Below are positions 443-39,268 of a stretch of DNA of 64,000 nt, piece by piece. Positions within the stretch are counted from its first letter, which is position 1. The number at the start of each line of letters is the position of its first letter. The notes beneath the pieces are model-generated. The model ran no database searches. It was not told the DNA's origin and saw nothing but the letters and a program-made list of their open reading frames with translations. The position numbers were made by a program, and so were the translations under genes. The stretch is from Terriglobales bacterium. Its GTDB lineage: Bacteria > Acidobacteriota > Terriglobia > Terriglobales > Acidobacteriaceae. The stretch spans positions 62,001-126,000 of the forward strand of contig DASRFG010000025.1 of the NCBI GenBank assembly GCA_035651655.1, given 5' to 3'.

Positions 443-774
443 GTTCACCTCTGGCAAAAAGAACTTACACTGTAATCCGTGCTTGACGCAAAATCTTCGG
501 CCCTGAATACCAGCGGCCTGTCACAACAAAATGTTATTTTCGTAAGGGAGTTCCAAATGTGAATACGGTCCTGGAGCACGGCCTTCAATTGCGAATCGCC
601 CTGTGGAAATATTGGTCCAAAACTAAACAAAAACACAGCTTATAGTGCTTCTGGTGTATTGCATACTAGCCGTGCAATTGACATAAAATAAACCGGTTTT
701 ACGCGCCGTAGCCCTAAATTGTTTGTGTTCCGCTGAGAGTCTTCGAGCATCACGTATTTCGGAGGTATCTCGCC
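443..774. other. Divergent intergenic region (M13 peptidase / radical SAM gene)
   Basis: This 332-base spacer separates two divergent genes and must hold both promoters. It is visibly more AT-rich than the flanking genes. A perfect 10-base palindrome AAACCGGTTT lies at 690-699, and a TTGACA hexamer at 678-683 has no good -10 partner 16-18 bases downstream. I see no small ORF with a credible ribosome site and no terminator. Confidence 0.4.
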
Positions 775-2157: not shown

Positions 2158-2198
2158 CGGTATTGCTGTCATCAGCCAGCCCTGAATTATCATCAGGC

Positions 2199-2825: not shown

Positions 2826-2826
2826 A

Positions 2827-2851
2827 TGCTGGGCTCATAGCTCACCCAGCA
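2827..2851 (+). terminator. Hairpin after the CDF-like gene, possible weak terminator
   Basis: A perfect 7-bp stem (TGCTGGG / CCCAGCA) with an 11-base loop directly follows the stop codon at 2825. There is no T-tract after it, so it is at best a factor-dependent or weak terminator. Confidence 0.3.
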
Positions 2852-2930
2852 ATTGGGCATGCCGTTACCCTAGTTATCTAACCCTTTCCTCCCCGACTAC
2901 CTAAAATCCCTGCGGGTACAGGCTCGTTTC

Positions 2931-4169
2931 ATGTTCAAACGCCTCTTATTTTTCGGGACGCTTCTGGCGCTGGCCGCCGCACTACCGTCATCGGCGCAAA
3001 GCGCTGCCGACTGGCAGAGCCGCGTTCGTGAGCGTGTCGAAAAGCACGATCTAACCGCTGCTGCTGGGATTGTGGATCAGCGTCTCAAAGACGCTCCCCA
3101 CGATCTTGAGGCCGTAGGGTGGCGCGCACGATTGCACGCCTGGAACGGCGATTGGCACGCCGCCGAATCCGAATACAAGCTGGTGCTTCAGAGTTCGCCG
3201 GATGACGTGGAAATCCTGATTGGCCTTTCAGACGTTCTGGCATGGCAGCAGCGTTCCGCGGAGGCGCTGCCGTTACTCAATCACGCTTGTTCTTTGGAGC
3301 CTTCAAACCCTGACGTTCTCGTTCACCGCGCTCGCGTGTTGCGGTCACTAGGGCGGCCGTCCGAAGCTCGACAAGACTTTCGCGCCGCATTGCGATTGGA
3401 TCAGCAGAATAAAGATGCTGCCACAGGTCTGGCTAGCCTAAGCTCAGAACTACGCCACGAGCTGCGCATAGGTAACGACACCGACTTCTTCAATTACACG
3501 GACACGGCGCAGGCACAGACGGTTAGTCTGCGTTCTCAGTGGACATCTCGTTGGGCGACTAGCTTCTCCGGCAGTTCGTATCAGCGTTATGGCGAGGATG
3601 CTGGCAAGTTCATGGTCAGCGTTACGCGCCGGCTTCCCGGCGCCAACGCGCTCACTGTAGGCGGCGCCATCGCTCATGACCAGACGGTGATACCGCGCTG
3701 CGAAGCCTTTTTCGACTTCGGCCACGGCTGGAAACTGGGAAGGAATTCGATGATTCGTGCGGTTGAAACCAGCTATGGCCAGCACTGGTACTGGTTTTCC
3801 GGCGCTCGCGTATTGGTGTTTTCGCCCACAGCGATGCTGTACCTTCCGGGGAACACTACCTGGTCATTCGCCGTTTCTCCGGCCCGGTCTCATTTTTCAA
3901 ATAGCGCCGCTGGCTGGCAGGTGTCCGGTGCGTCGCGCTTCAGTTTTCCCCTCCAGTCGCGGCTTACCGCGAATCTCTTCTACGCCGTGGGCAGCGAGAA
4001 TTTCGCCCAGGCGGACCAGATCGGTCGCTTTGCCGCACGTACCATCGGCGGCGGTAGCCGTTTGCAGCTCACCAGCCATCAGGACATCACGGGCTTCGTA
4101 GCCAGCCAGGACCGTTCCCAGGCGCGCTCCGCCATCAGCATCGGATTCAGCTACGGAATTCGTTTCTAG
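2931..4169 (+). CDS. TPR protein with YaiO-like outer-membrane beta-barrel
   Basis: 412 residues. A cleavable signal peptide (residues 1-23, ...ALPSSAQS) is followed by TPR-like helical repeats to about residue 175 (alternating W/A/L/Y pattern, P-x-N/D at turns), then a C-terminal half rich in alternating polar/aromatic strands that ends in Phe (GFSYGIRF), the usual outer-membrane barrel signal. This order matches YaiO-family barrels and parallels PgaA, the TPR-barrel exporter of poly-N-acetylglucosamine. It lies upstream, same strand, of a HEAT-repeat membrane protein and a processive GT2. The inferred role is an outer-membrane port for a polysaccharide; the polymer is unknown. The Shine-Dalgarno sequence is weak. 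Confidence 0.72.
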   Translation: MFKRLLFFGTLLALAAALPSSAQSAADWQSRVRERVEKHDLTAAAGIVDQRLKDAPHDLEAVGWRARLHAWNGDWHAAESEYKLVLQSSPDDVEILIGLSDVLAWQQRSAEALPLLNHACSLEPSNPDVLVHRARVLRSLGRPSEARQDFRAALRLDQQNKDAATGLASLSSELRHELRIGNDTDFFNYTDTAQAQTVSLRSQWTSRWATSFSGSSYQRYGEDAGKFMVSVTRRLPGANALTVGGAIAHDQTVIPRCEAFFDFGHGWKLGRNSMIRAVETSYGQHWYWFSGARVLVFSPTAMLYLPGNTTWSFAVSPARSHFSNSAAGWQVSGASRFSFPLQSRLTANLFYAVGSENFAQADQIGRFAARTIGGGSRLQLTSHQDITGFVASQDRSQARSAISIGFSYGIRF

Positions 4170-4266
4170 CGGCAAAGTTACCTCCTAACTTACAGGTTAC
4201 AAAGGGGTCTTGAATTACCTTGGTTACCTTACTGGCGTGCACACTTGACCCTACGATCAGCGTAGG

Positions 4267-5502
4267 ATGCCAGCTCTGCCTTTAGCCATCGAAGTATTTT
4301 TTCGCTGGATTGACCGCCTTGGCCCCGCCGGGCTGGTGGTCAGAGCGATTGTGGCCTCGCTCTGGGCAATTGCCGCCCTGCTTGTCTATATCTGTTTAAG
4401 GCGGCTCTACCGCGCTCTATTTTTTCGGATCCGCAATGCTCGCGCTTTAGTCATTCGTAATAAATGGCCGCAGATTGTTTCGGGTGTGGTTCCGCCTCGG
4501 ACGTGGCTCTTCAAATATCTCGACCGCAAAATCGTTGAACAAATTCTGCTCGATACCCTTGATGCTACCTCCGACGACCAGGCGGCGCCGCTGATCTCCT
4601 GCCTGCGTTCCTCCGGACTTCTGGAAATGCGCATTCATGAATCGCGCACTCGCAAAGGCTGGGAGAGACGCGAGGCGCTCACCACTTTGGGGCGTACGCG
4701 CGCTCCCGAGGCGATTGCTGCTCTGGCTGAAGCTTTACGCGATCCCAATGCCGAAAATCGCCTGGCGGCAGTGCGCGGACTGGGGCAGATTGGTCTTCCT
4801 GAAGCCGTGGATTATCTGCTCACTGGTGCGGTTGAACCCGATGGCACACTGACGGTCCCCGAAATCCCGTTGCAGAATGCCTTATTGCGGTGCTCCCGCA
4901 GTAAGCTTTCAGTCCTGCTGCCGCCCCTTCGCCGGGCCCAGGGTAAGCCTCGCGAAATACTAGCGCGCGTAGTTTCCGAGTTGGCCACCCCCGAAATCGG
5001 TGACGATCTTCTGATGTTGGCCTGCGATCCTCTCCCTGAGGTACGTGCATCCGCCGCTCGCGCTCTGGCCAGCGCCGATCCTGCATCTGCTTTTCCTGTG
5101 TTGTCCGTGCTCTCCGCCGATCCCGAATGGGAGGTACGCTTGCGCGCAGTCGCCGCGCTCAGCGCAATTCAGGATTCACGTGCCATTCCGGCCCTGGTCC
5201 GCTGTCTCTGCGACCGCAACCGCAGCATACGCGTACGGGCCGCGGCTGCCTTGGTGAAGTTTGAAGCGGAGCTGGATTACATCCTTCACAATGTGATCGC
5301 AACCCAGGACCAATATGCCCTGCAGGCGATGATTTCCGAATTGGAACGATCGGACATTTACGAAAAACTGCTTGTCGAATTGCGGCACTCCACTACGGCG
5401 CACCGGGCAAACGAAATGCTGGTCGAAGCGCTTCGCACCGGCGCCGAGAAGCTCAAGAAGAATTTGCGCTGGCAAAAGCTCGAGGAAGTAGTGTCGCAAT
5501 GA
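4267..5502 (+). CDS. Membrane-anchored HEAT-repeat protein
   Basis: 411 residues. One strong transmembrane helix lies near residues 20-48 (LVVRAIVASLWAIAALLVYI), followed by a basic segment and then, from about residue 120 to 370, repeated helical pairs of the HEAT/PBS-lyase type (PEAIAALAEALRDPNAENRLAA, SRAIPALVRCLCDRNRSIRVRAAAAL). Such repeats are protein-protein scaffolds. Its stop overlaps the start of the GT2 synthase (ATGA), so the two are translationally coupled and probably form one complex at the inner membrane. I infer that it couples or regulates the synthase; no enzymatic motif is seen. Confidence 0.75.
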   Translation: MPALPLAIEVFFRWIDRLGPAGLVVRAIVASLWAIAALLVYICLRRLYRALFFRIRNARALVIRNKWPQIVSGVVPPRTWLFKYLDRKIVEQILLDTLDATSDDQAAPLISCLRSSGLLEMRIHESRTRKGWERREALTTLGRTRAPEAIAALAEALRDPNAENRLAAVRGLGQIGLPEAVDYLLTGAVEPDGTLTVPEIPLQNALLRCSRSKLSVLLPPLRRAQGKPREILARVVSELATPEIGDDLLMLACDPLPEVRASAARALASADPASAFPVLSVLSADPEWEVRLRAVAALSAIQDSRAIPALVRCLCDRNRSIRVRAAAALVKFEAELDYILHNVIATQDQYALQAMISELERSDIYEKLLVELRHSTTAHRANEMLVEALRTGAEKLKKNLRWQKLEEVVSQ

Positions 5503-6956
5503 TTGCCTTGTTGAACGCCATCAACCTGGCGCTGTTCTGCTATTACTTGTTTACAAACCTCACCTATTTATTCCTGCTGGTCAGTGCCATCAGCGCCAAC
5601 ATCATGCATCAACGTCGTCTGGCCAGCCTCAAGCTCGAACACGTAGACCGTTCTCCCTTCACTCCGCCCATCGCTCTTCTGGTGCCTGCGCGCAACGAGG
5701 AAGGGTGCGTAGTTGAATCCATTCGCTCGCTGCTGGGAATTGATTACCCAGAGCTTGAAATAGTCTTAATCAACGATGGCTCGACCGATGGCACGTTGAA
5801 GCAGGTGCAAGAACATTTCAAGTTGAGGAAGGCGAACCTCTTATACGTTCCGGAGGTGCGTTGCGCGGAAGTTCATGCCCTCTACATCAGTACCGTAGAC
5901 CGTCGTCTGCTCGTGGTTGACAAAAAATCCGGCGGGAACAAAGCCGATGCGGTCAATGCCGGTCTGAACGCCACCTCGAGTCCTTATGTATGCGTAGTGG
6001 ACGCCGACTCTTTGCTGGAAAAGGATGCGTTGCTGCGCATGATGGGCGGCGTCTTCTCTCGCCCCAGCCAGATTGCTGCCGTGGGCGGCGTCGTCCGGGT
6101 GCTGAACGGCTCGTTAGTTGAGCGCGGCCGACTGACGACGGTGCAACTCCCGCGACGGCCCTTGGAAATTCTGCAAGTCATTGAGTACCTGCGTGCTTTC
6201 CTGATTGGCCGCGAGGGCTGGGCCCTCTACAACATGATGACCGTCATCTCCGGTGCGTTCGGGGTTTTTCGGCGCGATTTTATCGTCGAAATGGGCGGTT
6301 ATCGGCACAGCGCGATCGGAGAGGACATTGACCTTGTGGTTCGCCTTCACCGCCTGATGCGCGATCAGGGCGTGGACTATAAAATTCCCTTCGTTCCCGA
6401 TCCGGTTTGCTGGACCGAGGTTCCTGCGGACATTAGATCTCTGGCTCGGCAACGCGCCCGGTGGCATAAGGGCCTGTATGACGTGCTCTTACAAAACCGC
6501 GACATGCTATTTCGCAAGCGTTTTGGCAGGCTGGGCTGGATCGCCATGCCCTACCAATGGCTCTTTGAATTGGCCGCTCCTATTATTGAGTTGGTCGGCT
6601 ATGCCAGCATGCTGACAGCAGCGTTGCTTGGAGTCATGAGCATCCATTTTTTTCTGCAATTTCTGATCTTTGGTTATACCTTCGGCTCGCTGATATCTGT
6701 GGGCGCGGTATTGCAGGAAGAAATTACCTATCGTCGGTACAACCGCAAGCGGGACGTCGCTCTGCTGATAATGTTTTGTTTTCTCGAATACTTCCCGTAC
6801 CGGCAGCTGCAGATGTTCTGGCGTATGCAAGGTCTGTGGCAGTATTGGCGAGGAGATGTGGTGTGGAAGCAGGTCAGGCGTGTCGGCTTTGGCGAGACCG
6901 GCTCCGCCAGAGCTCAGTCCCACGAGGCAGAGGCAAGTACGGTTGTTCCTCAATAA
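5499..6956 (+). CDS. Processive family 2 glycosyltransferase (polysaccharide synthase)
   Basis: 485 residues. A TM helix at the N-terminus is followed by a GT-A domain: PARNEEGCVVESI and INDGSTDGT (nucleotide binding), VVDADS (DxD metal site), GEDID (catalytic base region) and RQRARW, the Q-x-x-R-W signature of processive synthases (cellulose, hyaluronan, PgaC). At least three C-terminal TM helices (about residues 350-430) would form the translocation channel. Catalysis is thus at the cytoplasmic face with transfer across the inner membrane. It is coupled to the HEAT gene by a 4-base overlap and follows the TPR-barrel gene, suggesting a three-part synthesis/export machine. Sugar specificity cannot be read from sequence. 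Confidence 0.85.
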   Translation: MIALLNAINLALFCYYLFTNLTYLFLLVSAISANIMHQRRLASLKLEHVDRSPFTPPIALLVPARNEEGCVVESIRSLLGIDYPELEIVLINDGSTDGTLKQVQEHFKLRKANLLYVPEVRCAEVHALYISTVDRRLLVVDKKSGGNKADAVNAGLNATSSPYVCVVDADSLLEKDALLRMMGGVFSRPSQIAAVGGVVRVLNGSLVERGRLTTVQLPRRPLEILQVIEYLRAFLIGREGWALYNMMTVISGAFGVFRRDFIVEMGGYRHSAIGEDIDLVVRLHRLMRDQGVDYKIPFVPDPVCWTEVPADIRSLARQRARWHKGLYDVLLQNRDMLFRKRFGRLGWIAMPYQWLFELAAPIIELVGYASMLTAALLGVMSIHFFLQFLIFGYTFGSLISVGAVLQEEITYRRYNRKRDVALLIMFCFLEYFPYRQLQMFWRMQGLWQYWRGDVVWKQVRRVGFGETGSARAQSHEAEASTVVPQ

Positions 6957-7149
6957 GAGGGTAGCGCACCACCGTGGAGGCAGCGGGCTGTCGGTTTTGT
7001 TAATTTGGCAGAATATGGCGCAACGCGCGGTTGCACGCTCGACAGTAATCTGCAGAGCGCTGCCCTGGCCCCGGCCTGAAGCGAGGCCAGCAGTGTCCCT
7101 TTGAAGCGCTTCCAGCTCGATCTACTTTATAAGTTTTGAGGTGAACTGC

Positions 7150-7941
7150 ATGATGGCTTTTCCTCGTATCTCCAGGCTGTGCGCGTTCGCATTGGTCGTG
7201 TTCTTCCTGACCTCGGCCGCCGCAGAAGAGATCACGGTTGCCGCCGCGGCCGACCTGCAGTTCGCATTCAAAGACATCGCCGCCAGGTTCGAAAAGGACA
7301 CCGGAAACTCTATAAAGCTGGTCTTCGGTTCTTCCGGGAACTTCACCAATCAAATTAAAAATGGCGCCCCTTTCGATATGTTTTTCTCTGCCGACATCGG
7401 TTATCCCCGGCAGCTCGAAACTGATGGCCTGGTCGAGCCGGGGACGCTCTATCACTACGCCAATGGCAATATTGTGCTCTGGGCACGGAAAGGTTCCAAT
7501 GTTGCTGTGGACCATGGTCTAAAGCTGGTTCTGGAGCGCGCGATTTCCAAAATCGCCATAGCTAATCCTCAACATGCGCCGTACGGTCGAGCCGCCGTAG
7601 CTGCGCTACGCCACGAAGGCATTTACGAACAGGTCCAGCGCAAGCTGGTGCTGGGTGAGAACATTTCCCAAGCGGCTCAATTCGTCGAAACGGGTAACGC
7701 GGACGTTGGGATCGTCGCCCTCTCATTGGTCCTGGCGCCGGCAATGCAGGGAAAAGGGAAGTACTGGCTCATTCCCGAGTCATGGTATCCGGCGATCGAA
7801 CAGGTATGCGTGACTCTGAAGTCCTCGCACCATAAGGAAGTAGCGCAGCAGTTTCTCGCTTATTTGAAGAAACCGGAGATTGCAAGACTAATGCAGGTGT
7901 ATGGATTTGTAGTGCCAAAGGCCGGAACAGTGGCCAATTGA
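7150..7941 (+). CDS. modA: Molybdate ABC transporter substrate-binding protein ModA
   Basis: 263 residues with a signal peptide (residues 1-24, ...FLTSAAA-EE), then the ModA fold: ITVAAAADLQFAFKDIA, FGSSGNFTNQIKNGAPFDMFFSAD and a C-terminal VPKAGTVAN. These segments carry the oxyanion-contacting Ser residues. Start: AGGTGA precedes the tandem ATG codons at 7150/7153; an upstream GTG at 7141 is inside that ribosome site. No modB, modC or ModE-like gene lies in the window, so it would need a membrane partner elsewhere. Converges with the alcohol dehydrogenase gene across a shared hairpin. Confidence 0.85.
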   Translation: MMAFPRISRLCAFALVVFFLTSAAAEEITVAAAADLQFAFKDIAARFEKDTGNSIKLVFGSSGNFTNQIKNGAPFDMFFSADIGYPRQLETDGLVEPGTLYHYANGNIVLWARKGSNVAVDHGLKLVLERAISKIAIANPQHAPYGRAAVAALRHEGIYEQVQRKLVLGENISQAAQFVETGNADVGIVALSLVLAPAMQGKGKYWLIPESWYPAIEQVCVTLKSSHHKEVAQQFLAYLKKPEIARLMQVYGFVVPKAGTVAN

Positions 7942-7957
7942 CCCGTTCCGGCCTTTT
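7917..7957 (+). terminator. Rho-independent terminator after modA
   Basis: A perfect stem AAAGGCCGGAAC / GTTCCGGCCTTT spans the end of modA and is followed by T residues (GGCCTTTTC). The left arm overlaps the last modA codons. The A-run before the stem means the minus strand also ends in Ts, so it may serve the convergent dehydrogenase gene as well. Confidence 0.8.
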
Positions 7958-7977
7958 CACTTTCTCAACATCTACCT

Positions 7978-9081
7978 TCAAAGCGACGGCCGCACTGCCA
8001 CTTTGATCACCCCATCTTGGCGGTCCCCAAAGAAGCTGTAGGCTTCAACAACCTGGTCGAGGGAGAAAACATGAGTCAGCAGTGGGCTCAAGTCAACCCT
8101 GTGGTGTCTCACAATTTCCATCAAGCGACGCATCCGCTCTTTGCCCCCCGGGCACAAGGTGGTGACGATCTTCTGGTCGCCAATGCCGGCGTGAAAGGCA
8201 TCCACCGGAAGTGAGAGCTTGCCGGAATAGACGCCAAGGCTGGAAAGAACTCCTCCAGGTTTCAACACCCTGAGAGCGCTTTCGAAGGTTTGTTGTGTAC
8301 CGAGCGCTTCGATAGCCACATCCACGCCTCCGCCGGTCAGCTTCTTGATTTGGCTCACCACATCCACTTCAAGGAAATTGAGCACGAAGTCAGCTCCCAT
8401 GCGCCGAGACATCTGAATTCGGGTGGGATCCGACTCCACCGCAATGATGGTGCTGGCGCCTCTAAGCCGTGCTCCGGCCGTAGCACATAGCCCGATCGGG
8501 CCCTGGGCAAAAACCGCCACCGTGTCGCCTATCTTCACATCCCCGGTTTCTGCGGCCGAAAATCCCGTGGATGCTATATCGGCCAGCAGAACCACTTCCT
8601 CGTCGCTCAGCTCGTCGGGAATTTTGGCGAGATTCGCCTGGGCATGGGGAACCAGCAGAAATTCGGCCTGAGCACCGTTGATGGTATTGCCAAACTTCCA
8701 CCCGCCCAGAGGTCCGCCGCATTGCGACCATTTGCCGCTCAGGCAGAAATTGCACTGCCCGCATGGTGTGATTGCTCCCACCAGCACGCGGTCGCCGACT
8801 TCGTAGCCACTCACGCCGGGCCCCAGTTCATGGATAATGCCTACCGGCTCGTGGCCCAGCACCAAGCCCGGCTTTACCGGATACTCGCCTCGAAGAATAT
8901 GAAGATCAGTGCCGCAAATCGTGGTCAGGGTCACGCGAATTACTGCTTCGCCATAACCCGCTCGTGGAATGGGTACTTCTTCCAACCCAATCTGATTGGC
9001 TGCCCGGAATACCAATGCTTTCATGGTTGAACCACTTTTAGGAGTGCGCGGTAAGAAAGATGGTGCCGTAAGTGTTGCCAT
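7978..9081 (-). CDS. Zinc-dependent medium-chain alcohol dehydrogenase
   Basis: 367 residues of the MDR family. TICGTDLHILRGEYP supplies the catalytic zinc Cys; LGHEPVGII supplies the His/Glu pair; CGQCNFCLSGKWSQC supplies the four Cys of the structural zinc; a Rossmann segment (VAVFAQGPIGLCATAGARL, an unusual GPIGL glycine pattern) binds NAD(P)H. It resembles the secondary-alcohol/isopropanol type. Start: ATG at 9081 has GGGAGGA seven bases upstream, better supported than the Met at residue 20 where many homologues begin, so the first 19 residues may be lineage specific. It follows a 74-residue gene by 26 bases, probably one transcript, with a CRP-like box further upstream. Confidence 0.88.
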   Translation of the reverse strand: MATLTAPSFLPRTPKSGSTMKALVFRAANQIGLEEVPIPRAGYGEAVIRVTLTTICGTDLHILRGEYPVKPGLVLGHEPVGIIHELGPGVSGYEVGDRVLVGAITPCGQCNFCLSGKWSQCGGPLGGWKFGNTINGAQAEFLLVPHAQANLAKIPDELSDEEVVLLADIASTGFSAAETGDVKIGDTVAVFAQGPIGLCATAGARLRGASTIIAVESDPTRIQMSRRMGADFVLNFLEVDVVSQIKKLTGGGVDVAIEALGTQQTFESALRVLKPGGVLSSLGVYSGKLSLPVDAFHAGIGDQKIVTTLCPGGKERMRRLMEIVRHHRVDLSPLLTHVFSLDQVVEAYSFFGDRQDGVIKVAVRPSL

Positions 9082-9107
9082 TGTCTGTCCTCCCTTCGGT
9101 TGGCGTT

Positions 9108-9332
9108 TTAAGAAGCTGCAGCACGGTCATCACTTTGTTTGTACATTTCTATGCTGTAGACATGAGTGATGATGCCGTTTTCGGGATTCATATCGGCGAG
9201 GATTCGGTAAGTTTCGCGACGCGCGACGTAGCCCTTGTCCTCCAGGCTTATGACCCGCTTATGAAACACGTCTGCATCCAGTTCGCGGACGATAATCGCC
9301 TCTGTCTTCTTTGATGTTCCCTCGCTCGACAT
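9108..9332 (-). CDS. Small conserved-looking cytoplasmic protein, function unknown
   Basis: 74 residues beginning MSSEGTSKKTEAIIVRELD, with no Cys, no membrane segment and a mixed alpha/beta composition. The chosen ATG is preceded by AGAGGTGAG with 4-bp spacing; a further upstream in-frame ATG at 9356 lacks such a site. It is the first gene of a two-gene minus-strand unit with the zinc alcohol dehydrogenase, and the CRP-like palindrome at 9407-9424 is 75 bases upstream of its start. I recognise no family. Being co-transcribed with the dehydrogenase under a likely redox/stress regulator suggests an accessory role. Confidence 0.65.
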   Translation of the reverse strand: MSSEGTSKKTEAIIVRELDADVFHKRVISLEDKGYVARRETYRILADMNPENGIITHVYSIEMYKQSDDRAAAS

Positions 9333-9406
9333 TCGCTCACCTCTGTCTTCAGTCATGATTCTTGCTCGCGCATAACAGGAAGCACCGTGGGGGGTATCAC
9401 CCGGGG

Positions 9407-9424
9407 TTGTGACCCCCGTCACAA
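9407..9424. promoter_or_regulatory. CRP/FNR-family operator, perfect palindrome
   Basis: TTGTGACCCCCGTCACAA is a perfect dyad with 7-base arms and fits the CRP-type consensus TGTGA-N6-TCACA. It lies between the minus-strand small protein/dehydrogenase unit (75 bases from the start codon) and the plus-strand Crp/Fnr regulator gene (about 180 bases upstream of it). A second site of the same spacing is at 11401-11416. Binding by the adjacent regulator is inferred. Confidence 0.7.
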
Positions 9425-9602
9425 AGAGATTCGGGGAAGGTAGCCTCTTGGGAAACCCTTATGTGCCGGCTATTCGCATCACAAGCAGCACAAAGGCGGC
9501 AACCAGAGATACGGGGTACACAAGCTACAACTCCACTAAATTCAGATATTTGCGTGTACCTTGCCTAAATGGAAGAAGGGTATATTATGGGGCGACAGAC
9601 AT

Positions 9603-10325
9603 ATGCCCGCGGAATCGCCCTACGGACTGCCCATCATTGATAGTTGCGTGACCTGCAAATCGAGAGAAGACTTTCTTTTTTGTAGTCTTTCGCGCACCGC
9701 ACTGGAGAACCTGCAAAAAATTAAGTCGAGCGCAACCTATCCCAAAGGGGCAGTTCTGTTCGTAGAAGGCCAGAACGCCCGGGGCATCTTTATTCTTTGT
9801 AGCGGCCGCGCCAAACTTTCCACATCGGCAGCGGATGGCCGCAGCCTCATCCTCAGGATTGCGGAGCCCGGCGAGGTGCTTGGACTGAGTGCAAGCGTTT
9901 CGGGACGCCCCTATGAGGTTACCGCTGAGACCTTGGGGCCGGCACAAGCCAATTTTGTGGAACGCAATAATTTTCTTCATTTCCTTAAGGAGAATGGCGA
10001 GGTAGCCCTGCGGGTGGCGCAGGAACTCAGCAACAACTATTACTCTGCATATACTGAAATTCGCTCTCTTGGCCTATCTCATACCTCCTCGGAGAAGCTG
10101 GCCAAGTTGCTCCTGGAATGGTCAGAGAACGCGGAAACCAAGGGTCTGGAGCAGCGTGTGAAAGTCACGCTAACCCATGAAGAGATTGCGCAATTGATAG
10201 GTTCCTCACGTGAAACCGTGACCCGCAGCTTCACTGAACTCAAGAAGAAGCAATTGATTCAGTTAAAGGGCTCCACTCTGGTTATTCGCAACCGCGCGGC
10301 GCTTGAGAAGCTGGTAAATTCGTAG
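9603..10325 (+). CDS. Crp/Fnr family transcriptional regulator with N-terminal Cys triad
   Basis: 240 residues. An N-terminal cluster of cysteines (CVTC...FFC pattern, here DSCVTCKSREDFLFCSLS) precedes a cyclic-nucleotide-binding-type beta-roll (YPKGAVLFVEGQ, GIFILCSGRAKLS, PGEVLG). A long dimer helix follows, then a winged helix-turn-helix (LTHEEIAQLIGSSRETVTRSFTELKKK) whose recognition helix SSRETVTR carries the usual R/E contacts. The Cys spacing (C-x2-C-x8-C) suggests redox or metal sensing as in FNR-like proteins, but the cluster type is not established. Start: ATG at 9603 chosen over an in-frame TTG at 9561. Neighbours on both sides have CRP-like boxes, so it is probably their local regulator. 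Confidence 0.88.
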   Translation: MPAESPYGLPIIDSCVTCKSREDFLFCSLSRTALENLQKIKSSATYPKGAVLFVEGQNARGIFILCSGRAKLSTSAADGRSLILRIAEPGEVLGLSASVSGRPYEVTAETLGPAQANFVERNNFLHFLKENGEVALRVAQELSNNYYSAYTEIRSLGLSHTSSEKLAKLLLEWSENAETKGLEQRVKVTLTHEEIAQLIGSSRETVTRSFTELKKKQLIQLKGSTLVIRNRAALEKLVNS

Positions 10326-30649: not shown

Positions 30650-31756
30650 CTAATTCGACCCATCCACCGACAGTTGGTAGATAAAATCCGGCCGGGCCAT
30701 ACCACGGAATTCGAATACGTGAACAAAGAACGTGGTCGGGGCCCCCAACGCGCCCGGGACCCGCAGAAGTATTCGCGAGTCGCGGGTTGACCCGCCAATC
30801 TGCACGTCATCGTTGATGCATTGGTCGAAGAATCCCCCAACCAGCTTGGGTGGAACAAGAGGCGCGGTGGCCGCATCCAGCGCCGGATCGTCACAGGTCT
30901 GCAGGCGTTGCCCATTCGAGTCCACTAGTTCTATGACGGTATCCATCTGCGAGGGTGTAGGTATCAGTCTGTCGGCAAATGATTCAATGGTGTAGGTTGC
31001 CCCGCCCACAGTGTTCACAGCATAAAAATCAGAATCGGCAGGCGCAAGCAAGCCGGTGCTGGCGTCAAATCCGGGGCTGAGGGAGGCAGTAAATTTCCCC
31101 CGCGTAATCGGCGTTGCGTGGGCGATATCGTCATTGCGCGCCGCCGAGGAAACCACGTTTAAGGTGAGCGCCTGGGTGGCGATAGTGCCAATGCTATCAG
31201 GCACGCTAACGGTAAAGGAGAAAGACCCTGTCACGGTTGGTGTGCCGGTCACAATTCCCAGCGCACTGAACCCCATGCCAGTGGGCAAAGAACCACTGAG
31301 TGTCCAGAATCCAGGGCCGGCAGTCCCGAGGGTCGCCAACTGAACTTCATAGAAGTGGTTCACCACGGCATCGGGCAAGCTCGTGGTCGTGATGGCGAAT
31401 GGCGCCGCCGTGACATTCAGATGAACTGTGCCCGTCCCGGTTCCTGTCCCAGAATCGGTGACGTTCACCGTAAAATGCGCTGCCCCAGCGGCCGCCGGAA
31501 TTCCGCTGATCGCACCGTTCTTATCCATCGTGAGCCCCAGTGGCAGTAGCGTACCCGAGCTGAATTTATAAGGAGGCGCACCGCCACTGGCATGCAGTTG
31601 CTGCTGGTAGATCACTCCCACCTGTCCAGCTGCCACGTTCGATGTCACAGTAAGGTGCGCTGGGGGTGGTGGTGGTGGCGGAGCCGAGCCTCCCCCGCCA
31701 CACGCGACCATACCTGCTACTACGCACACCATGATGAAAAGAGATGCGCTCTTCAT
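30650..31756 (-). CDS. Lipoprotein with Ig-like (He_PIG) repeats and PPC-like domain
   Basis: 368 residues. The signal peptide ends in VACGGGG; the Cys is a lipobox residue, followed by a Gly/Pro-rich tether. Two putative-Ig repeats follow (LPLGLTMDKNGAISGIPAAAG and LPTGMGFSALGIVTGTPTVTG, each ending G-T/I-P), then from about residue 230 a pre-peptidase C-terminal-like beta-sandwich (DSDFYAVNTVGGATYTIESFA, MDTVIELVDSNGQRL). Predicted surface or periplasmic. It is the last gene of a three-gene operon and overlaps the matrixin gene by ATGA. The fold suggests a binding or docking partner for the protease. Confidence 0.78.
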   Translation of the reverse strand: MKSASLFIMVCVVAGMVACGGGGSAPPPPPPPAHLTVTSNVAAGQVGVIYQQQLHASGGAPPYKFSSGTLLPLGLTMDKNGAISGIPAAAGAAHFTVNVTDSGTGTGTGTVHLNVTAAPFAITTTSLPDAVVNHFYEVQLATLGTAGPGFWTLSGSLPTGMGFSALGIVTGTPTVTGSFSFTVSVPDSIGTIATQALTLNVVSSAARNDDIAHATPITRGKFTASLSPGFDASTGLLAPADSDFYAVNTVGGATYTIESFADRLIPTPSQMDTVIELVDSNGQRLQTCDDPALDAATAPLVPPKLVGGFFDQCINDDVQIGGSTRDSRILLRVPGALGAPTTFFVHVFEFRGMARPDFIYQLSVDGSN

Positions 31757-33108
31757 AGGCCGCGCTCCTGGTTCACGCTGCCATGGATCGCCCGCAAATC
31801 ATCGGGAATCAAGAGCAACGAGCCTTCAAAGCCATCCAGAATCTGCGGGGTATTGCTGAGCGTGAGATCCACTGCCGGCCCGGTTGTTCCCGCGGTTACG
31901 GAAAACGGGGAACTGGTGGCTGCGGAGCCGGGTATCGGGATTGGCGGATCCAGCGGCCCCACGCTCGAACCAGCCGTAAATGCACCGAACACAGATTCCG
32001 CCTCTATCGTGTACTGGTTGCCCCCAGGCACAGGCATCTGGTAAGAACCCAACATTCCGGGGGCGCGTCCACCGAAGACGTCGCCACCCGTGTTGTCATC
32101 AAGAAAACCACGAGGTGGACATTGGCTCGCCGGTGCGCATTGCAGATAGTTGCTGGTGATTGACTGGCCCAGGTTGCCCGTGAATTGGTACCCCGAGACC
32201 GACGAAACCGCCACCGCTCTAGGATTGCCGACCTGGCGTGCAATTACATTCGCACCTTGCACCGGCGTCTTACCATCGGAAAAAAAGATGGTTCCGGTGA
32301 CGATCCCATACACCGAGCTGAAGGCAGTTTTTCCCCCACCCGTCGTGGCCACGGGGTAGAGAAAGGATATCCACGCCATGTCATCGGGAGACAGTGGACT
32401 AGGCCGAGTCTGGCAATGGGCGAAGGGGAACATCAAGGGCAAGCCGGCCACGTCGGTGGGGGAGCAATGATCCTGAGGCTGGAACAACACATCAAAGTTG
32501 ATTTGCGAGTGTCCCAGCCCCGAAAGATGACCAATTTCATGCGTGATCGCCTCATCGAACTGGCTGTTCGATAACTCGCCGTTGCTGGGATCCAAGTCCT
32601 GCCACTCGCCACCCATCAGCAACATGGCTGAAAGAATCGTTCCAGCGCTGGGATCCACCGCGCAGAGAGAACTAAACCCAATTACCCCGCTCCGCGCGCC
32701 AAAAAGTCCGGTGAGTATGCTTCCATTGGCGTCAAAAACTACCGGGTTCTGTTGTCTGTGGGAGCAGGAGCTGAATAATGTGTTCAGGTCGCCCACCGTC
32801 TTGGCGTCTCCCCCCGCCACCCCAAGAAGCGGACCCGCATTCGCATAGCTGATGGCGGCTGTCGGAACATTGGACCAGTTGGCGAACATGCTGTTAACGC
32901 GGGCTACGCCCTGCGCGTGTGTAATTTTCACCTTACCCGACTTGTCGATAGACATCGGCCCGCTGTCCACCCGATAACTGACGGGGAATGTTCTCCAGAC
33001 CAGAGGCGCGCCGGAACTGCTCAGCATCAGAGGTCCGCCGGCAAAGGCCGCGCAACAGGCAGCCAATACAAACGCAAATAGGAGGAGGTGCCTGCCACGA
33101 ATGTTCAT
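31753..33108 (-). CDS. Secreted matrixin-like zinc metalloprotease
   Basis: 451 residues. The signal peptide contains LAAC at about residues 15-18, which could be a lipobox, or cleavage could follow AFAG. The protease domain has HEIGHLSGLGH, the H-E-x2-H-x2-G-x2-H zinc motif of metzincins, and a Met-turn at LPLMFPF, then DDMAWISFLYP as in matrixins. A C-terminal carboxypeptidase-regulatory-like beta domain starts near VTGTIFFSDGKTPVQGANV. It is translationally coupled on both sides by 4-base overlaps. Target unknown; extracytoplasmic proteolysis is clear. Confidence 0.83.
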   Translation of the reverse strand: MNIRGRHLLLFAFVLAACCAAFAGGPLMLSSSGAPLVWRTFPVSYRVDSGPMSIDKSGKVKITHAQGVARVNSMFANWSNVPTAAISYANAGPLLGVAGGDAKTVGDLNTLFSSCSHRQQNPVVFDANGSILTGLFGARSGVIGFSSLCAVDPSAGTILSAMLLMGGEWQDLDPSNGELSNSQFDEAITHEIGHLSGLGHSQINFDVLFQPQDHCSPTDVAGLPLMFPFAHCQTRPSPLSPDDMAWISFLYPVATTGGGKTAFSSVYGIVTGTIFFSDGKTPVQGANVIARQVGNPRAVAVSSVSGYQFTGNLGQSITSNYLQCAPASQCPPRGFLDDNTGGDVFGGRAPGMLGSYQMPVPGGNQYTIEAESVFGAFTAGSSVGPLDPPIPIPGSAATSSPFSVTAGTTGPAVDLTLSNTPQILDGFEGSLLLIPDDLRAIHGSVNQERGL

Positions 33109-33695
33109 CGGTTGCTCCTGGCTAAGTCGGCTACCAGTTGCTTCATGTCGTTCAGCGGCAATGGCCCGGCCTGCGCCGTCAGCGCCCGCACCGACCGCTC
33201 GGAAAGTGACACTCCCCGCATTGCTGCGTCCCGCTGCACCCCGGCAAGCAAGCCGATGTTGCCGCGACCGTTCTCAGCTACCAGGCGACCTGATAATTGG
33301 GATATCCGGAAGCGGCCTTGCTCCATGCCCACCGGCGCCGACAAGCCGTATTCGCTGGGAGTAGTCAGCATGAGCACTAATTCCTCCCCTTTGCGATAGC
33401 CCCCGGCATTCAAACGGTCGCGAATGTCCCAGAGAAACTGCCGAAAAGTGAAGGTCTTGTCGGCTTGTCCCTTCATCACTTCGTCCACCTTCATGGTGAC
33501 TACCACCGTAGGTAGGTTCTGGAACTGGGGATGCGGCTCAACCCGCGCAAAAAGAACGTGCCCATGAACGATTGTCCCGGCGTTGCTAACCAGGGCAGAC
33601 AGATTTTGCGGCGCAGTGACGGCGCCGTGTTGCGCCCAGCCCGAAACCGCCAGGCATACGGTAAGCACGAAGCAGAGAGCTCGGAGGAATTGCAT
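33105..33695 (-). CDS. Secreted protein of unknown function, first gene of matrixin operon
   Basis: 196 residues with a clear signal peptide (MQFLRALCFVLTVCLAVSGWAQ). The mature part is beta-rich at first (AGTIVHGHVLFARVEPHPQF, TVVVTMKVDEVMKGQADKTFTFRQFLWD) and reads like a small extracellular binding domain, with a helical tail. It has no Cys pairs and no catalytic motif that I recognise. Start: ATG after GGGAG; an upstream frame to 33761 lacks a ribosome site. The stop overlaps the matrixin start (ATGA), implying stoichiometric production; possible roles are propeptide-like inhibitor or chaperone of the protease, which is inference. Confidence 0.65.
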   Translation of the reverse strand: MQFLRALCFVLTVCLAVSGWAQHGAVTAPQNLSALVSNAGTIVHGHVLFARVEPHPQFQNLPTVVVTMKVDEVMKGQADKTFTFRQFLWDIRDRLNAGGYRKGEELVLMLTTPSEYGLSAPVGMEQGRFRISQLSGRLVAENGRGNIGLLAGVQRDAAMRGVSLSERSVRALTAQAGPLPLNDMKQLVADLARSNR

Positions 33696-34173
33696 CGAAA
33701 ACTCCCGGTGGGGTGAGATGGCGGTGGCGTGACTTCGGGAAATACGGTACATATAACCCACAAATAGTCTTAAAACCTAAAGCGCCGAACTGCGGTGCCT
33801 AAAGTGGAGGGGTATGTTAGCAGAGATGGCACCGAATGCAACCCCCTAATTCGCATTTTCCGATTTTGCGAACAGAGAAAATACACGTCCTCCGAAGCTG
33901 CCAGCATCTTTAGTTCCAGAGTTGCTCCATTCTTAAGTTGGAATGCGCAAAACGCTCTTATCCCTTGAAGGATCAACAGGAATGAACCGATGAACTCAAG
34001 TCGGGCATAGTTATCTCCGCCACACACTGCTGAGCACAATTTCCACTATCGTAGGAAGCAAACTTCCATTTTTAATTATTGGAACACACTGTGGAGGATT
34101 GACCCGACAGATGAACGAACCGTTACATGCCTCCTATCTGGTGTCCATTCGGTGAGCCTCGATCTCTCGTGGC
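33696..34173. other. Divergent intergenic region, AT-rich, no gene recognised
   Basis: About 480 bases between the matrixin operon (leftward) and the Qng1-like operon (rightward). It is clearly less GC-rich than its surroundings. A possible 89-codon minus-strand frame at 33770-34039 has no ribosome site and an unconvincing composition. No RNA fold or repeat is obvious. The rightward promoter follows at its right end. Confidence 0.4.
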
Positions 34174-34203
34174 TTGACACCGCCTGGGGTTTAATCGTTT
34201 AAT
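34174..34203 (+). promoter_or_regulatory. Sigma70-type promoter of the Qng1-like operon
   Basis: TTGACA at 34174-34179 (perfect -35) and TTTAAT at 34198-34203 (5 of 6 -10 bases) are 18 bases apart. Transcription would begin near 34210, leaving a leader of about 11 bases before the ATG at 34221. This is the best housekeeping promoter visible in the window. Confidence 0.6.
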
Positions 34204-34220
34204 TCCACCGCCTTCCCAAC

Positions 34221-35384
34221 ATGCAGCGGACCGGACCCACGGAAGATGCGAGCGGTCGTCCAGATCGCCGTGACTTTTTGAAAAAGATGGGAGGGAGTGT
34301 GGTCGCTCTGCCGCTTGCGCGCAGCTTGGCCCCTATAAAACAACCCCGCTCAGTCCCTGGGACTGACAATCGCAACGCCGCCTCCCAGCTGCGCTGGCCC
34401 CAACCCATCGGCAGCCCCGTCCTGGACAGCCTCCGTCCAGTCATTGAGAACTCCCGCGACGTCCACACCAATGTCGCCAAAATTGGGGAGCACGCCGGTT
34501 GGATGGCCTATGAAGAGCTGCCTCTGCCCGAGTTCGGCCTACCCTTCGGGATCGGCGACAATCCCCGGCAGGCGATTGATTTCATCCTGGTGGCTGACGC
34601 CATTGACTTCGCCTTCACCGACTTCAGCACCAATATCAAGTTCCAGGTGGACTTCGCCGGCAAGCATTGGTCGGATTCGGACGCGATGTTTGGCTGCCTC
34701 AAGCGTGCCCTCGACGAGAACATCCCAATTCTGGATGGCAAGTTCCTCAGCCGGGTGACCCGTGCCGAGCTCGAGCGCATTTTCCGGGGCAACATCGAGA
34801 TGCCCATGCTGGACGAGCGCGTCGCCATCTTTCACGAAGTGGGCGGCGTCCTGGCGTCGCGCTATGACGGGCACTTTTACAATTTCGTCAAATCGGCATC
34901 GCCGCGGGTTTATGACAACGGAAGGGGACTGGTGGACAAACTCGTCGCCGAGTTTCCTCGCTTCAATGATGTGAGCACCTACGACGGCAAACAGATAAAG
35001 ATCTACAAGCTTCCGCAGCTCGGTGTCTGGATGCTTTACAGTGCGTTACATGCCAAAGGCGGCTTCCAGCTGCAAGATCCCGAAAAGATGACCGCCTTTG
35101 CCGACTACATTGTTCCGGCGGCGTTACGCGTGATGGACATCCTGCAATATTCGCCGGGGCTGGAAGAAACCATCAACCAGCACCGCATGGTGCCGCGCGA
35201 CAGCACCCAGGAAATCGAAATTCGCGCGCACACGCTCTATGCCACGGCGCTGCTGCGGGAAGAGGTCAACAAGCGGCGTCCATCAGACATGCAAGTGATT
35301 ATTCCGCAGATTGACGCTCGCTTATGGACGCATTACCACACGACATTCTGGCCGCACCATCTCACTCGCACCATCATGTATTGA
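34221..35384 (+). CDS. Queuosine-salvage glycosylase (Qng1/DUF2419) homologue with Tat-like signal
   Basis: 387 residues. Residues 15-38 contain DRRDFLKK followed by a weakly hydrophobic segment (MGGSVVALPLARSLA), a twin-arginine signal pattern. The rest matches the eukaryotic and bacterial queuosine-salvage family: ADAIDFAFTDFS, LKRALDENIPI, MPMLDERVAIFHEVG, AEFPRFNDVSTYDGKQIKIYKLPQL, FADYIVPAALRVMDILQYS and QEIEIRAHTLYA. Family members hydrolyse queuosine 5'-phosphate to queuine. The conserved ADY (294-296) is kept, but the following Arg of the usual ADYRVPQ is Ile. Known members are cytosolic, so export would be new. A strong promoter lies upstream and a secreted nucleoside hydrolase is 24 bases downstream. 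Confidence 0.8.
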   Translation: MQRTGPTEDASGRPDRRDFLKKMGGSVVALPLARSLAPIKQPRSVPGTDNRNAASQLRWPQPIGSPVLDSLRPVIENSRDVHTNVAKIGEHAGWMAYEELPLPEFGLPFGIGDNPRQAIDFILVADAIDFAFTDFSTNIKFQVDFAGKHWSDSDAMFGCLKRALDENIPILDGKFLSRVTRAELERIFRGNIEMPMLDERVAIFHEVGGVLASRYDGHFYNFVKSASPRVYDNGRGLVDKLVAEFPRFNDVSTYDGKQIKIYKLPQLGVWMLYSALHAKGGFQLQDPEKMTAFADYIVPAALRVMDILQYSPGLEETINQHRMVPRDSTQEIEIRAHTLYATALLREEVNKRRPSDMQVIIPQIDARLWTHYHTTFWPHHLTRTIMY

Positions 35385-35408
35385 TAGCGGCCACTTGAGG
35401 AAAAACGA

Positions 35409-36536
35409 ATGCCCGTATCTACCCGATGTCTGCGGTTCGCCGTCATCTCTGCAGCCCTGTTACTTTCTATTCAGACCGCCTACCCGCAAGCCGGAAACCG
35501 CCGCAAAGTCATCATTGATCAGGACTGTCGTGGGCCAGCCACCACCGACCATCAAGCCATCCTCGTATTTGTCCAATCTCCCGAGGTCGAGACCCTGGGC
35601 ATCACCGTCGTAAGTGGCGACCAGTGGCGCGACGAAGAGGTTGCGCACACGCTGCGCATGTTGGAGATCATCGGTCGCACCGACATTCCGGTTGTCCCCG
35701 GCGCAATTTTTCCTCTGATCAACAATAAGGAAGAGATCACCCGCTGGGAAAAATTGTACGGCAAGGTTCCCTACAAAGGCGCATGGAACGAACGCAAGCT
35801 GGGGAATTACACCGGCGCCTGGAACCAGGACTACCACGGGCCATTCGTGGTGCCGACGCTCCCCGAAGGCAATCCCACTACCAAGCCGGCCAACGAGGAT
35901 GCCGCTCACTTCCTGGTCCGCATGGTTCGCCAATATCCGCACGAGGTCACCATCTACGCCGGCGGGCCTTTAACTAACCTGGCGCTGGCCATCGCACTCG
36001 ACCACGAGTTTCCCAGTCTGGCTAAAGAATTAGTAGTGATGGGCGGCAGCTTGAATCCCGCGCCCGAAGATGCCGAATTTGCCAGCAACCCGCGCCGCGA
36101 ATTTAATTTCTGGTGGGACCCTGAGGCCACGCACATGGTGCTGCGCGCGCCCTGGCCGAAGATTACGGTCACGACGGTCGATATTTCTATCAAAACTCGG
36201 CTGAAGAAACCTATGATCGCGCAGATCGCCGCCGCCAATACTCCGGCTGCGCAGTATCTGGCCAAGTGGGCGGACGAGGAATACATGTGGGACGAGCTTG
36301 CCGCTGCCGCCTGGCTCGATCCTTCGATCATTACCAAGCAGCGCAAGGTCTACCTGGACATTGATATTGACCACGGTGCCAGTTACGGAAACACTCTGAG
36401 CTGGGCTGAGGGCCAGAACCCCGGTTTGGGCGAGCAACTAGCCATCGTGCAGGAAGACCTGAACAAAGATAAGTTTTATTCCATGTTCATAGATTTGATG
36501 AAGCGTCCGACGCCGCCGGCGAGGGCAGGGCGCTAG
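35409..36536 (+). CDS. Secreted nucleoside hydrolase (IU-NH family), variant metal motif
   Basis: 375 residues. A signal peptide (CLRFAVISAALLLSIQTAYPQ) is followed by the nucleoside hydrolase fold: TVVSGDQWRDE, the VPVVPGA segment, DAAHFLVRMVRQYPHEVTIYAGGPLTNLALAIALDHEFPSLAKELVVMGGS and FNFWWDPEA. The signature D-x-D-P-G-x-D-D reads D37-Q-D39 ... T-D47-H48, four residues longer with the last Asp replaced by His, so the Ca2+ site is altered. The family cleaves ribonucleosides to base and ribose. ATG after GAGGA. It lies between the Qng1-like and PfkB genes and would act outside the cytoplasm. Confidence 0.85.
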   Translation: MPVSTRCLRFAVISAALLLSIQTAYPQAGNRRKVIIDQDCRGPATTDHQAILVFVQSPEVETLGITVVSGDQWRDEEVAHTLRMLEIIGRTDIPVVPGAIFPLINNKEEITRWEKLYGKVPYKGAWNERKLGNYTGAWNQDYHGPFVVPTLPEGNPTTKPANEDAAHFLVRMVRQYPHEVTIYAGGPLTNLALAIALDHEFPSLAKELVVMGGSLNPAPEDAEFASNPRREFNFWWDPEATHMVLRAPWPKITVTTVDISIKTRLKKPMIAQIAAANTPAAQYLAKWADEEYMWDELAAAAWLDPSIITKQRKVYLDIDIDHGASYGNTLSWAEGQNPGLGEQLAIVQEDLNKDKFYSMFIDLMKRPTPPARAGR

Positions 36537-36577
36537 AAGATCAGTTCATTATTAAAGCGTTACTTTAAGGAGTATTT

Positions 36578-37546
36578 ATGGCGACGAAGATGGATGTGAT
36601 CGGGCTTGGCAGTTGCACGGTTGACTTCTTCGCCATCGTGCCCAAGCTGATCGGCGCGGACGAGAAGGTCAACGCTACCCGTCTTGAAGTGCACGCAGGC
36701 GGGGTCACCGCCAACAACCTCACGCAGGTCGCCCGCTTGGGCGCAAAGACCGGCTGGATCGGCTTCATCGGCGACGACGAAAACGGCCGCATTATCACTA
36801 AGGCTTTTGAGGACGACGGTATGGACTTGTCCGGCGTCGAAGTGCGGAAAGGAGAGCTCTCCTCGCTCACCTGGATTCCGGTAGATTCCGAAGGCGAGCG
36901 CTGCATCTATATGTTTCCCAATATCACCGCCAGGATTACACCGAAAGATATCCAATCGCGCTTCGCCAAGGACATCCGCGATTCGCGACACTTCCATACC
37001 GAAGCTTCTCAGTTGCCGCTGGCGCCCGTGCTCGAAGCCATTCGCGTGGCCCGCAGCGCCGGAGTGAAGACGATCTTCGATCTCGATGTCGCCCCCTCGT
37101 ATGTAGTCACGTCTGGCCTCGGCAGCGAAGCGGAGCTGACGGGCATTCTGCGCACCATTGACGTGCTGAAGCCTTGCAAGGCTGCCGCCCGAGAGCTGAC
37201 CGGTGAAACCGACTACGACCGCATCGCAAAAAAGATGCTCGCTTTGGGGCCGAAGTTGGTGGCCATCACCATGGGCGCGGAAGGGTGCATGGTTGCCGCC
37301 GGCGATCGCAGCAGCCACATCCCGTCTTTCAAGGTCAAGGTGGTGGACACAACCGGCGCCGGTGACGCCTTTATGGGCGGACTATCTTATGGTCTGCTTC
37401 AGGGCTGGGACCACGAACGCGTCGGTCAGTTCGCCAATGCCTGCGCCGCCCTGTGCTGCACCAAAGTTGGCGCTCGCGCCATGGCCAGCCTCGGAGAGGT
37501 CAATGCGCTGGTCGCTTCCAGGGCTGAGGGCGCAGTGGCGGTGTAG
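36578..37546 (+). CDS. PfkB family carbohydrate (ribokinase-like) kinase
   Basis: 322 residues. Family N-terminal block GLGSCTVDFF, the substrate-side GGVTANNLTQVARLGAKTGWIGFIGDDENG, and the second signature DTTGAGDAFMGGLSYGLLQG with the catalytic Asp and anion hole. Members phosphorylate ribose, nucleosides or related sugars; the specificity cannot be read off. Start: ATG after AAGGAG. It is 41 bases downstream of the nucleoside hydrolase gene; the natural inference is capture of the released ribose, or of a nucleoside, as its phosphate. A dispersed repeat follows the stop codon. Confidence 0.88.
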   Translation: MATKMDVIGLGSCTVDFFAIVPKLIGADEKVNATRLEVHAGGVTANNLTQVARLGAKTGWIGFIGDDENGRIITKAFEDDGMDLSGVEVRKGELSSLTWIPVDSEGERCIYMFPNITARITPKDIQSRFAKDIRDSRHFHTEASQLPLAPVLEAIRVARSAGVKTIFDLDVAPSYVVTSGLGSEAELTGILRTIDVLKPCKAAARELTGETDYDRIAKKMLALGPKLVAITMGAEGCMVAAGDRSSHIPSFKVKVVDTTGAGDAFMGGLSYGLLQGWDHERVGQFANACAALCCTKVGARAMASLGEVNALVASRAEGAVAV

Positions 37547-37627: not shown

Positions 37628-39268
37628 GTGAAGATTGCCCTGGGGCAAATCAACACCACCATCGGTGATTTCAGCGGCAATGCCGCGAAGATCATTGATT
37701 TTTCTCGGCGTGCGCAAGCCGCCGGCGCCGGCCTCATTCTTTTTCCTGAGCTGGCCATTTGCGGCTACCCGCCGCGCGATCTGGTGGAGCGCCCCAATTT
37801 CATCGCCCACAATCAGGAGGCGCTCGAGCGCATTGCCAAAGAGACACGCGGTATCGCGGTCATCTGCGGGGTGGCCACTCCGGCGCAAGCCGAAACCGGC
37901 AAGCGAGTGATGAACTCCGGAGCGTTGCTGCGCGACGGTGAGGTCGCCCTCGTGCAGTCGAAAATGCTCCTGCCCACCTACGACGTTTTCGACGAAATGC
38001 GCAACTTCGCTCCCGCGCAGAAACAAGAAATATTCCAATTTTGCGGCAAACAAATGGCGCTCACCATATGCGAAGACGCATGGAATGACAAACACTTCTG
38101 GGACCGCCGCCTCTATGGTTTCGATCCCATCGAGGCGCTGATCACCGGCGGTGGCAATTTCGTGCTTAACATCTCCGCCTCGCCCTTTTGGATGGGCAAA
38201 CGTGAATTGCGGCGCAAGATGCTCGCCTCCATCGCCACCAACAACCGCGTACCTGTCGTTATGGTCAATCTGGTCGGCGGAAACGACAGCCTGGTCTTCG
38301 ATGGTGCCAGTGTGGTGATCGCTCCCGACGGCCGCGTCGTCGCCCAGGGAAAATCCTTTGAGGAAGACCTGATCTACTTCGATCCCGACGCGCTCACCGG
38401 CGAAATGCACCAGCAAATAGAAGAGGGCGAGGCCAGCGTGTATGCCGCGCTGGTGCTCGGCACCCGCGATTACTGCCGCAAGTGCGGTTTCGACCGGGTC
38501 ACCATCGGCCTCAGCGGCGGCATCGATTCCTCACTCACTGCCACGATCGCGGTCAACGCTCTGGGTCCGGAGAACGTTCTGGGTGTGACCATGCCCAGTC
38601 CCTATTCTTCCCAGAGCAGCATCGCGGATTCTCAAGCTCTCGCCGATAATCTCGGCATTCGTTTTGAGACCATCCCGATTAGCGGACTATTCGCCAGCTA
38701 TCGTCAGGCGCTCGATCCGATCTTTGCCGGGCTGCCTCCGGATGTGACGGAAGAGAACATCCAGTCACGCATCCGCGGTAACCTGCTGATGGCACTCTCC
38801 AACAAGTTTGGCGGCATCGTGCTCAGCACCGGGAACAAGTCGGAGCTCGCAGTCGGCTACTGCACTCTCTACGGCGACATGGCCGGTGGCTTGGCAGTCA
38901 TCTCCGATGTTCCTAAGATACTGGTATACCGTTTGGCGAAGTACGTAAATTCACGCCGTACTGTCATTCCCGAGTCCATCTTCGAGAAACCGCCCTCCGC
39001 CGAATTGCGCCCCCACCAAAAAGATACCGACACTTTACCGCCCTACGATGTTCTCGATCGCATTCTCGAAGACTATGTTGAAGACCTGAAGACAGCGGAA
39101 CAGATCGCCCGCGAGCGCAAATTCGATTTGGCGCTGGTCCGGCGGGTGATCTGCATGATTGATCGCTCCGAGTACAAGCGCCAGCAGGCGGCGCCGGGAA
39201 TCAAGATTTCCGAGAAGGCCTTCGGTATCGGCCGTCGTTTCCCGATTGCCGCAAAATATGAGTATTAA
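37628..39268 (+). CDS. nadE: Glutamine-dependent NAD+ synthetase
   Basis: 546 residues, two domains. The N-terminal nitrilase-type amidohydrolase (1-250) has the Glu-Lys-Cys triad in FPELAICGYPPRDL, QSKMLLPTYDVFDE and ALTICEDAWND; it releases ammonia from glutamine. The C-terminal synthetase has the PP-loop SGGIDSSLTATIAV, SNKFGGIVLSTGNKSELAVGY and PPSAELRPHQKDTDTLPPYD. It amidates nicotinate adenine dinucleotide. Start: GTG. DsbA-like gene begins 12 bases after it. Being close to the nucleoside-salvage genes may or may not be functional. Confidence 0.94.
   Translation: MKIALGQINTTIGDFSGNAAKIIDFSRRAQAAGAGLILFPELAICGYPPRDLVERPNFIAHNQEALERIAKETRGIAVICGVATPAQAETGKRVMNSGALLRDGEVALVQSKMLLPTYDVFDEMRNFAPAQKQEIFQFCGKQMALTICEDAWNDKHFWDRRLYGFDPIEALITGGGNFVLNISASPFWMGKRELRRKMLASIATNNRVPVVMVNLVGGNDSLVFDGASVVIAPDGRVVAQGKSFEEDLIYFDPDALTGEMHQQIEEGEASVYAALVLGTRDYCRKCGFDRVTIGLSGGIDSSLTATIAVNALGPENVLGVTMPSPYSSQSSIADSQALADNLGIRFETIPISGLFASYRQALDPIFAGLPPDVTEENIQSRIRGNLLMALSNKFGGIVLSTGNKSELAVGYCTLYGDMAGGLAVISDVPKILVYRLAKYVNSRRTVIPESIFEKPPSAELRPHQKDTDTLPPYDVLDRILEDYVEDLKTAEQIARERKFDLALVRRVICMIDRSEYKRQQAAPGIKISEKAFGIGRRFPIAAKYEY

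Follow-up and report, generated by a model that had tools for sequence, protein, structure and literature searches.

Qng1 is regarded as a cytosolic enzyme, with which animals and plants recycle the micronutrient queuine inside their cells. Why, then, should a bacterial Qng1 homologue carry an export-type N-terminal signal and lie beside a secreted nucleoside hydrolase (NH) and a sugar kinase? The question is raised by three genes within 64,000 nucleotides from a soil-type Terriglobales bacterium of the phylum Acidobacteriota (GenBank assembly GCA_035651655.1, contig DASRFG010000025.1, positions 62,001 to 126,000), the whole of this stretch being referred to here as the window. All three lie on the plus strand: a Qng1/DUF2419 (PF10343) family glycosidase of 387 amino acids (34221 to 35384), a predicted secreted NH of a divergent subfamily, 375 amino acids long (35409 to 36536), and a PfkB-family sugar kinase of 322 amino acids, predicted to be cytosolic (36578 to 37546). 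The intergenic gaps are 24 and 41 bases, in agreement with the co-directional trio described in an initial annotation of the window. We consider that the trio is probably the glycosidase half of a two-part periplasmic system for scavenging nucleosides and ribose, which would follow the logic of the rus system of Bacteroides thetaiotaomicron with an exported Qng1-family glycosidase added.

Fold, export signals and recurrence of the trio

The three family assignments of the initial annotation held, each protein scoring far over the Pfam cut-off: Qng1 matches PF10343 (Q_salvage) with an E-value of 6e-62 and 210 bits (cut-off 25), the NH matches PF01156 (IU_nuc_hydro) with 6e-57 and 194 bits (cut-off 34.2), and the kinase matches PF00294 (PfkB) with 1e-56. 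A phmmer search aligned Qng1 with the crystallised enzyme of Sphaerobacter thermophilus across the whole catalytic part (E 1e-46). The structural model that had been proposed as a check, made with AlphaFold, superposes on 7uk3 with a Z-score of 38.5 and a root-mean-square deviation of 2.1 Å over 314 residues, and on human Qng1 (7ugk) with a Z-score of 36.5. Its mean predicted local distance difference test score (pLDDT) is 85, and because residues 1-54 almost all score below 50, the N-terminal extension is modelled outside the confident fold, the catalytic domain starting from about residue 57. Four residues, K263, D295, D365 and W369, are invariant across 22 Acidobacteriota Qng1 sequences (alignment A1) and correspond to K199, D231, D298 and W302 in Sphaerobacter numbering; K199 and D231 are altered in the mutants K199C and D231N named in PDB titles, and D298 and W302 are the Qng1 active-site pair (PMC11592518). 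Beyond these core residues, the segment FAFTDF differs from the FCFWGE of Sphaerobacter.

The Tat-type (twin-arginine translocation) signal region of Qng1, MQRTGPTEDASGRPDRRDFLKKMGGSVVALPLARSLAP... (34221 to 34382, plus strand), contains DRRDFLKK at residues 21-28, with a 12-residue mean hydropathy of 1.46. We compared window-type Qng1s (about 54-71% identity, 26 loci) with the 8 other Qng1s of the phylum: a twin-arginine (RR) motif with a weakly hydrophobic stretch behind it occurs in 20 of the 26 and in none of the 8 (p 1.7e-4; Fisher test, here and below taking no account of shared ancestry), the rest of the N-terminus being poorly conserved. Two of the window-type N-termini (loci L063 and L071) resemble those of Tat lipoproteins, and TatC is encoded in the window's genome. 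In a tree of the Qng1s the RR label forms clusters but takes 4 changes to explain, so the signal was probably gained or lost more than once. The window NH begins with a Sec-like signal, MPVSTRCLRFAVISAALLLSIQTAYPQA, and the NHs of related loci are likewise Sec-type. From these conserved signals we infer that Qng1 and the NH are exported by Tat and Sec respectively, as the initial annotation had suggested.

Recurrence of the gene order in relatives, named beforehand as the test that could refute the initial annotation, was found: Qng1, NH and PfkB stand in the same order in the window and in six other Acidobacteriota genomes (L020, L060, L062, L063, L064 and L066). Because the order recurs across genomes, the arrangement is real and not due to chance. 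Three further loci (L057, L083 and L084) have, in place of the window-type kinase, one of ribokinase type, which is followed by a ureide permease. Some genomes hold more than one window-type Qng1, two copies each being present in G538 (one at L071, 314-1402) and G514 (L057 and L072), and G633, from the window's own family, encodes a different and very divergent Qng1 (34%, long branch; L069, 7071-8039).

A probable two-part scavenging system

The fullest arrangement, in L020, runs from a canonical secreted NH through a TonB-receptor-like outer-membrane barrel (PF25183 and CarboxypepD_reg), Qng1, NH and PfkB to a ureide permease (PF07168) and a TPR protein. A second locus in the window's own genome (L077, G000:C23:600000-618000) carries the remaining parts, all on the minus strand at 339-9995 (G000:C23:600338-609994): a ureide permease, a ribokinase-like kinase, a canonical secreted NH, a TonB-like barrel, a TPR protein and an FG-GAP/ASPIC protein. 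Its barrel is 75% to that of L020, and L077 is likely to be the partner of the window operon. The trio alone does not contain the rus-type gene set, which in this genome is found only in L077; barrel, NH, ribokinase and a permease of drug/metabolite transporter (DMT) type occur in one locus in L015 and L025, and in L020 and L064 with a non-ribokinase PfkB. Since parts of the barrel-NH-kinase-permease set are also found without Qng1 (e.g. L077, L097), Qng1 is an accessory to this system. Near the 8 non-window-type Qng1 loci there was no NH, kinase or permease, and only a single weak 23% barrel match (L014). Across 399 genomes of the class, the variant NH is present in 14 of the 19 with a window-type Qng1 and in 80 of the 380 others (p 3e-6). 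A ureide permease gene is found in 17 of 18 genomes with an RR-bearing Qng1 compared with 2 of 6 with an RR-less one (p 0.006).

Taken together, nucleosides or nucleotides of degraded RNA would enter through the TonB-receptor-like barrel, and two Sec-exported NHs, one canonical and one with the variant motif DQDxxGPxxTD, would split them in the periplasm. Substrates beyond the reach of the NHs, of which nucleosides or nucleotides of the 7-deazaguanine (queuosine) type are the most plausible, would fall to the Tat-exported Qng1-family glycosidase. Ribose, base or both, once freed, would then cross the inner membrane through the ureide-permease/DMT transporter, the sugar being phosphorylated by the PfkB kinase of the operon and by the ribokinase. 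The outline given by the initial annotation, in which nucleosides are degraded outside the cytoplasm and base and ribose are returned, is supported, but it was too narrow, having missed the TonB-like barrel, the ureide permease, the second NH and the ribokinase.

Several observations weigh against this scheme. The two halves lie on different contigs in this genome, their joint function being suggested by L020 and other loci. The RR motif is lacking in 6 of the 26 window-type Qng1s (L013, L021, L025, L054, L055 and L060); in L060 an arginine-rich start lies in a different reading frame, and a frameshift in the assembly is possible, whilst the other five look cytosolic. The window kinase scores 168 bits against the ribokinase model TIGR02152, below its cut-off of 299.65, and has no GGKGAN motif. 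Kinases of L057 and L025 exceed that cut-off (332 and 339 bits). The window PfkB occupies the slot that a ribokinase fills in relatives, and genes 65-77% identical to it are likewise found at this place in relatives; because the window protein fails the cut-off, its label as a ribose kinase is positional only. The variant NH subfamily replaces the canonical DxDPGxDD with DQDxxGPxxTD, including a 3-residue insertion (DQDCRGPATTD in the window), and does not match the calcium- and ribose-binding DxDxxxDD of inosine-uridine NHs (IU-NH). It keeps the other active-site motifs, EFN and a late Asp (D242-type) in WDEL, and with the leading Asp of its DD pair gone the enzyme may act on something other than an ordinary ribonucleoside. 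The available text on a qng1-linked ureide permease, which moved preQ0 and preQ1, does not name ribose as a substrate (PMC11130926). Finally, the associations of the RR motif, the variant NH and the permease come from tests which ignore shared ancestry.

Relatives of the variant NH are found in 94 of the 399 genomes, about a quarter, most without Qng1, and are often multicopy, with four in G591; among solved structures they have distant relatives only (best phmmer E 3e-22). Two variant NH domains are fused in tandem in one 770-amino-acid open frame in G538 and G444 (L083, 6657-8966; L084, 6453-8762).

Upstream of the trio, the initial annotation had pointed out TTGACA (34174) and TTTAAT (34198), 18 bases apart; a sigma-70 scan of this region returned 0 sites where shuffled sequence averages 1.6, and as the signal is not above chance a promoter here was set aside. 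Control by a riboswitch was rejected, Rfam giving no match up to E 0.5. Plasmid carriage was likewise rejected, as a tblastn search with Qng1 against 72,556 plasmids gave no match. Divergently placed on the minus strand at 31753-33761 are a secreted protein that resembles matrixins (M10, with a Pfam match below threshold) and a 218-amino-acid protein with no Pfam family.

Substrates and alternative explanations

Which nucleosides does the predicted exported Qng1 attack? Family-by-family searches for queC, tgt, queA and queG found all four in the window's genome (G000), which answers in part the call in the initial annotation to look for que genes. With tgt, queA, queC and queG in the genome, the organism should not depend on scavenged queuine. 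Nearly every carrier genome tested has both tgt and queA, and as carriers such as G214 and G475 have queA without queC over the cut-off, the need for salvage may differ between carriers. It is conceivable, and we advance it tentatively, that the exported enzyme cleaves queuosine-type nucleotides or nucleosides from the tRNA of dead cells in the periplasm and feeds deazapurine and ribose inward. The deazapurine link is supported by the preQ0/preQ1 transport of the qng1-adjacent permease (PMC11130926), and no description of such an extracytoplasmic queuosine-scavenging route was found in the literature.

It is somewhat unlikely that the exported Qng1 has instead changed its specificity and become a general catabolic glycosidase acting on ordinary or damaged purine nucleotides. 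Such a change would suit the ribose-scavenging context, carrier genomes which mostly make queuosine (Q) themselves, and the FAFTDF segment that differs from Sphaerobacter, yet the four residues which tests or published accounts link to Qng1 catalysis or binding are all invariant.

Salvage of a micronutrient is an unlikely purpose for the locus: here tRNA fragments in the environment would be the source from which the exported Qng1 frees queuine or preQ1, the ureide permease would import the deazapurine for TGT, and ribose use would be a by-product. The retained catalytic residues fit this, as do the uptake of preQ0/preQ1 by the Acidobacteriota permease and the near-universal tgt and queA of carriers, some of them lacking queC over the cut-off. 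However, the window's genome should make Q itself, the tested permease does not carry Q and takes up queuine only at very high concentration (PMC11130926), and the locus, which also occurs where Qng1 is missing, is well supplied with ribokinase and several NHs.

Cytosolic nucleotide housekeeping, in which the RR motif would be coincidental and the neighbouring nadE (37628-39268, a real gene downstream of the trio) would point to the use of nicotinamide nucleosides, as the initial annotation had left open, could draw on the six RR-less window-type Qng1s but is very improbable, given the distribution of the RR motif and hydrophobic stretch (20/26 vs. 0/8), the Sec-type signals of the NHs and the absence of a nadE homologue near any related locus searched, on which ground the nicotinamide link was rejected.

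If the scavenging system operates as proposed, a Qng1 clade with export signals at such a locus would mean that bacteria in the environment break down modified nucleosides of tRNA extracellularly, and the puzzling qng1-linked Acidobacteriota transporter, which moves preQ1 and not Q, would gain a context. The loci also provide genes for a direct test of nucleoside use in a soil phylum that is common but poorly cultured. They flag, too, an NH subfamily whose catalytic motif is altered and which occurs in about one in four of the sampled genomes of the class.

Comparison with known systems

The window Qng1 shares its fold, 32-33% identity and the K199/D231/D298/W302 set with the enzymes of Sphaerobacter thermophilus (7u07/7u91) and human (7ugk), but differs from both in its N-terminal export-type signal and its ribose-scavenging gene context. 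The NH belongs with RihA/RihC and the IU-NHs in PF01156, having EFN and the late Asp in common with them; it differs in DQDxxGPxxTD with its insertion, in lacking the leading aspartate of the DD pair and in its predicted secretion.

Part of the neighbourhood, qng1 with a ureide permease, has prior art. Quaiyum et al. (2024) report a ureide permease (A0A2V9U0M9) adjoining qng1 in an Acidobacteriota bacterium; in E. coli the permease carries preQ0 and preQ1, the latter even at 5 nM (PMC11130926). That locus agrees with ours in phylum, in gene families and in having a PF07168 gene no more than a few genes away from qng1, a likeness drawn at the level of family rather than sequence identity, whereas export signals, TonB receptors and ribokinase do not figure in the main text of the paper. 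Within limited literature coverage, neither the export signals nor the barrel, the variant NH or the kinases were found to have been mentioned in print. The statement in the initial annotation that no pathway of this make-up had been described was nonetheless an overstatement, since the rus polysaccharide utilisation locus, though it has no Qng1, follows this logic and the qng1-adjacent permease had been reported and tested.

In B. thetaiotaomicron, rus (BT2803-2809) comprises a TonB-dependent receptor, SusD, an NH, a ribokinase and, as the proposed importer of ribose, a permease of DMT type (PMC10434189, PMC12596196). The proposed Acidobacteriota system is likened to it by gene content, not by part-by-part homology: a TonB-type receptor, NH, ribokinase and DMT-type permease are common to both. 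The ureide-permease family had no match in the control genome of B. ihuae (Bacteroides), so that homology of the ureide permease with RusT is not supported by this control. No SusD was seen at the Acidobacteriota loci, where no search was aimed at it; the barrel there has FG-GAP/ASPIC and TPR proteins beside it. As listed in those two reports, rus has SusD and no Qng1, whereas the Acidobacteriota system has two types of NH and a putative Tat-type Qng1, and in the window's genome is split into two loci.

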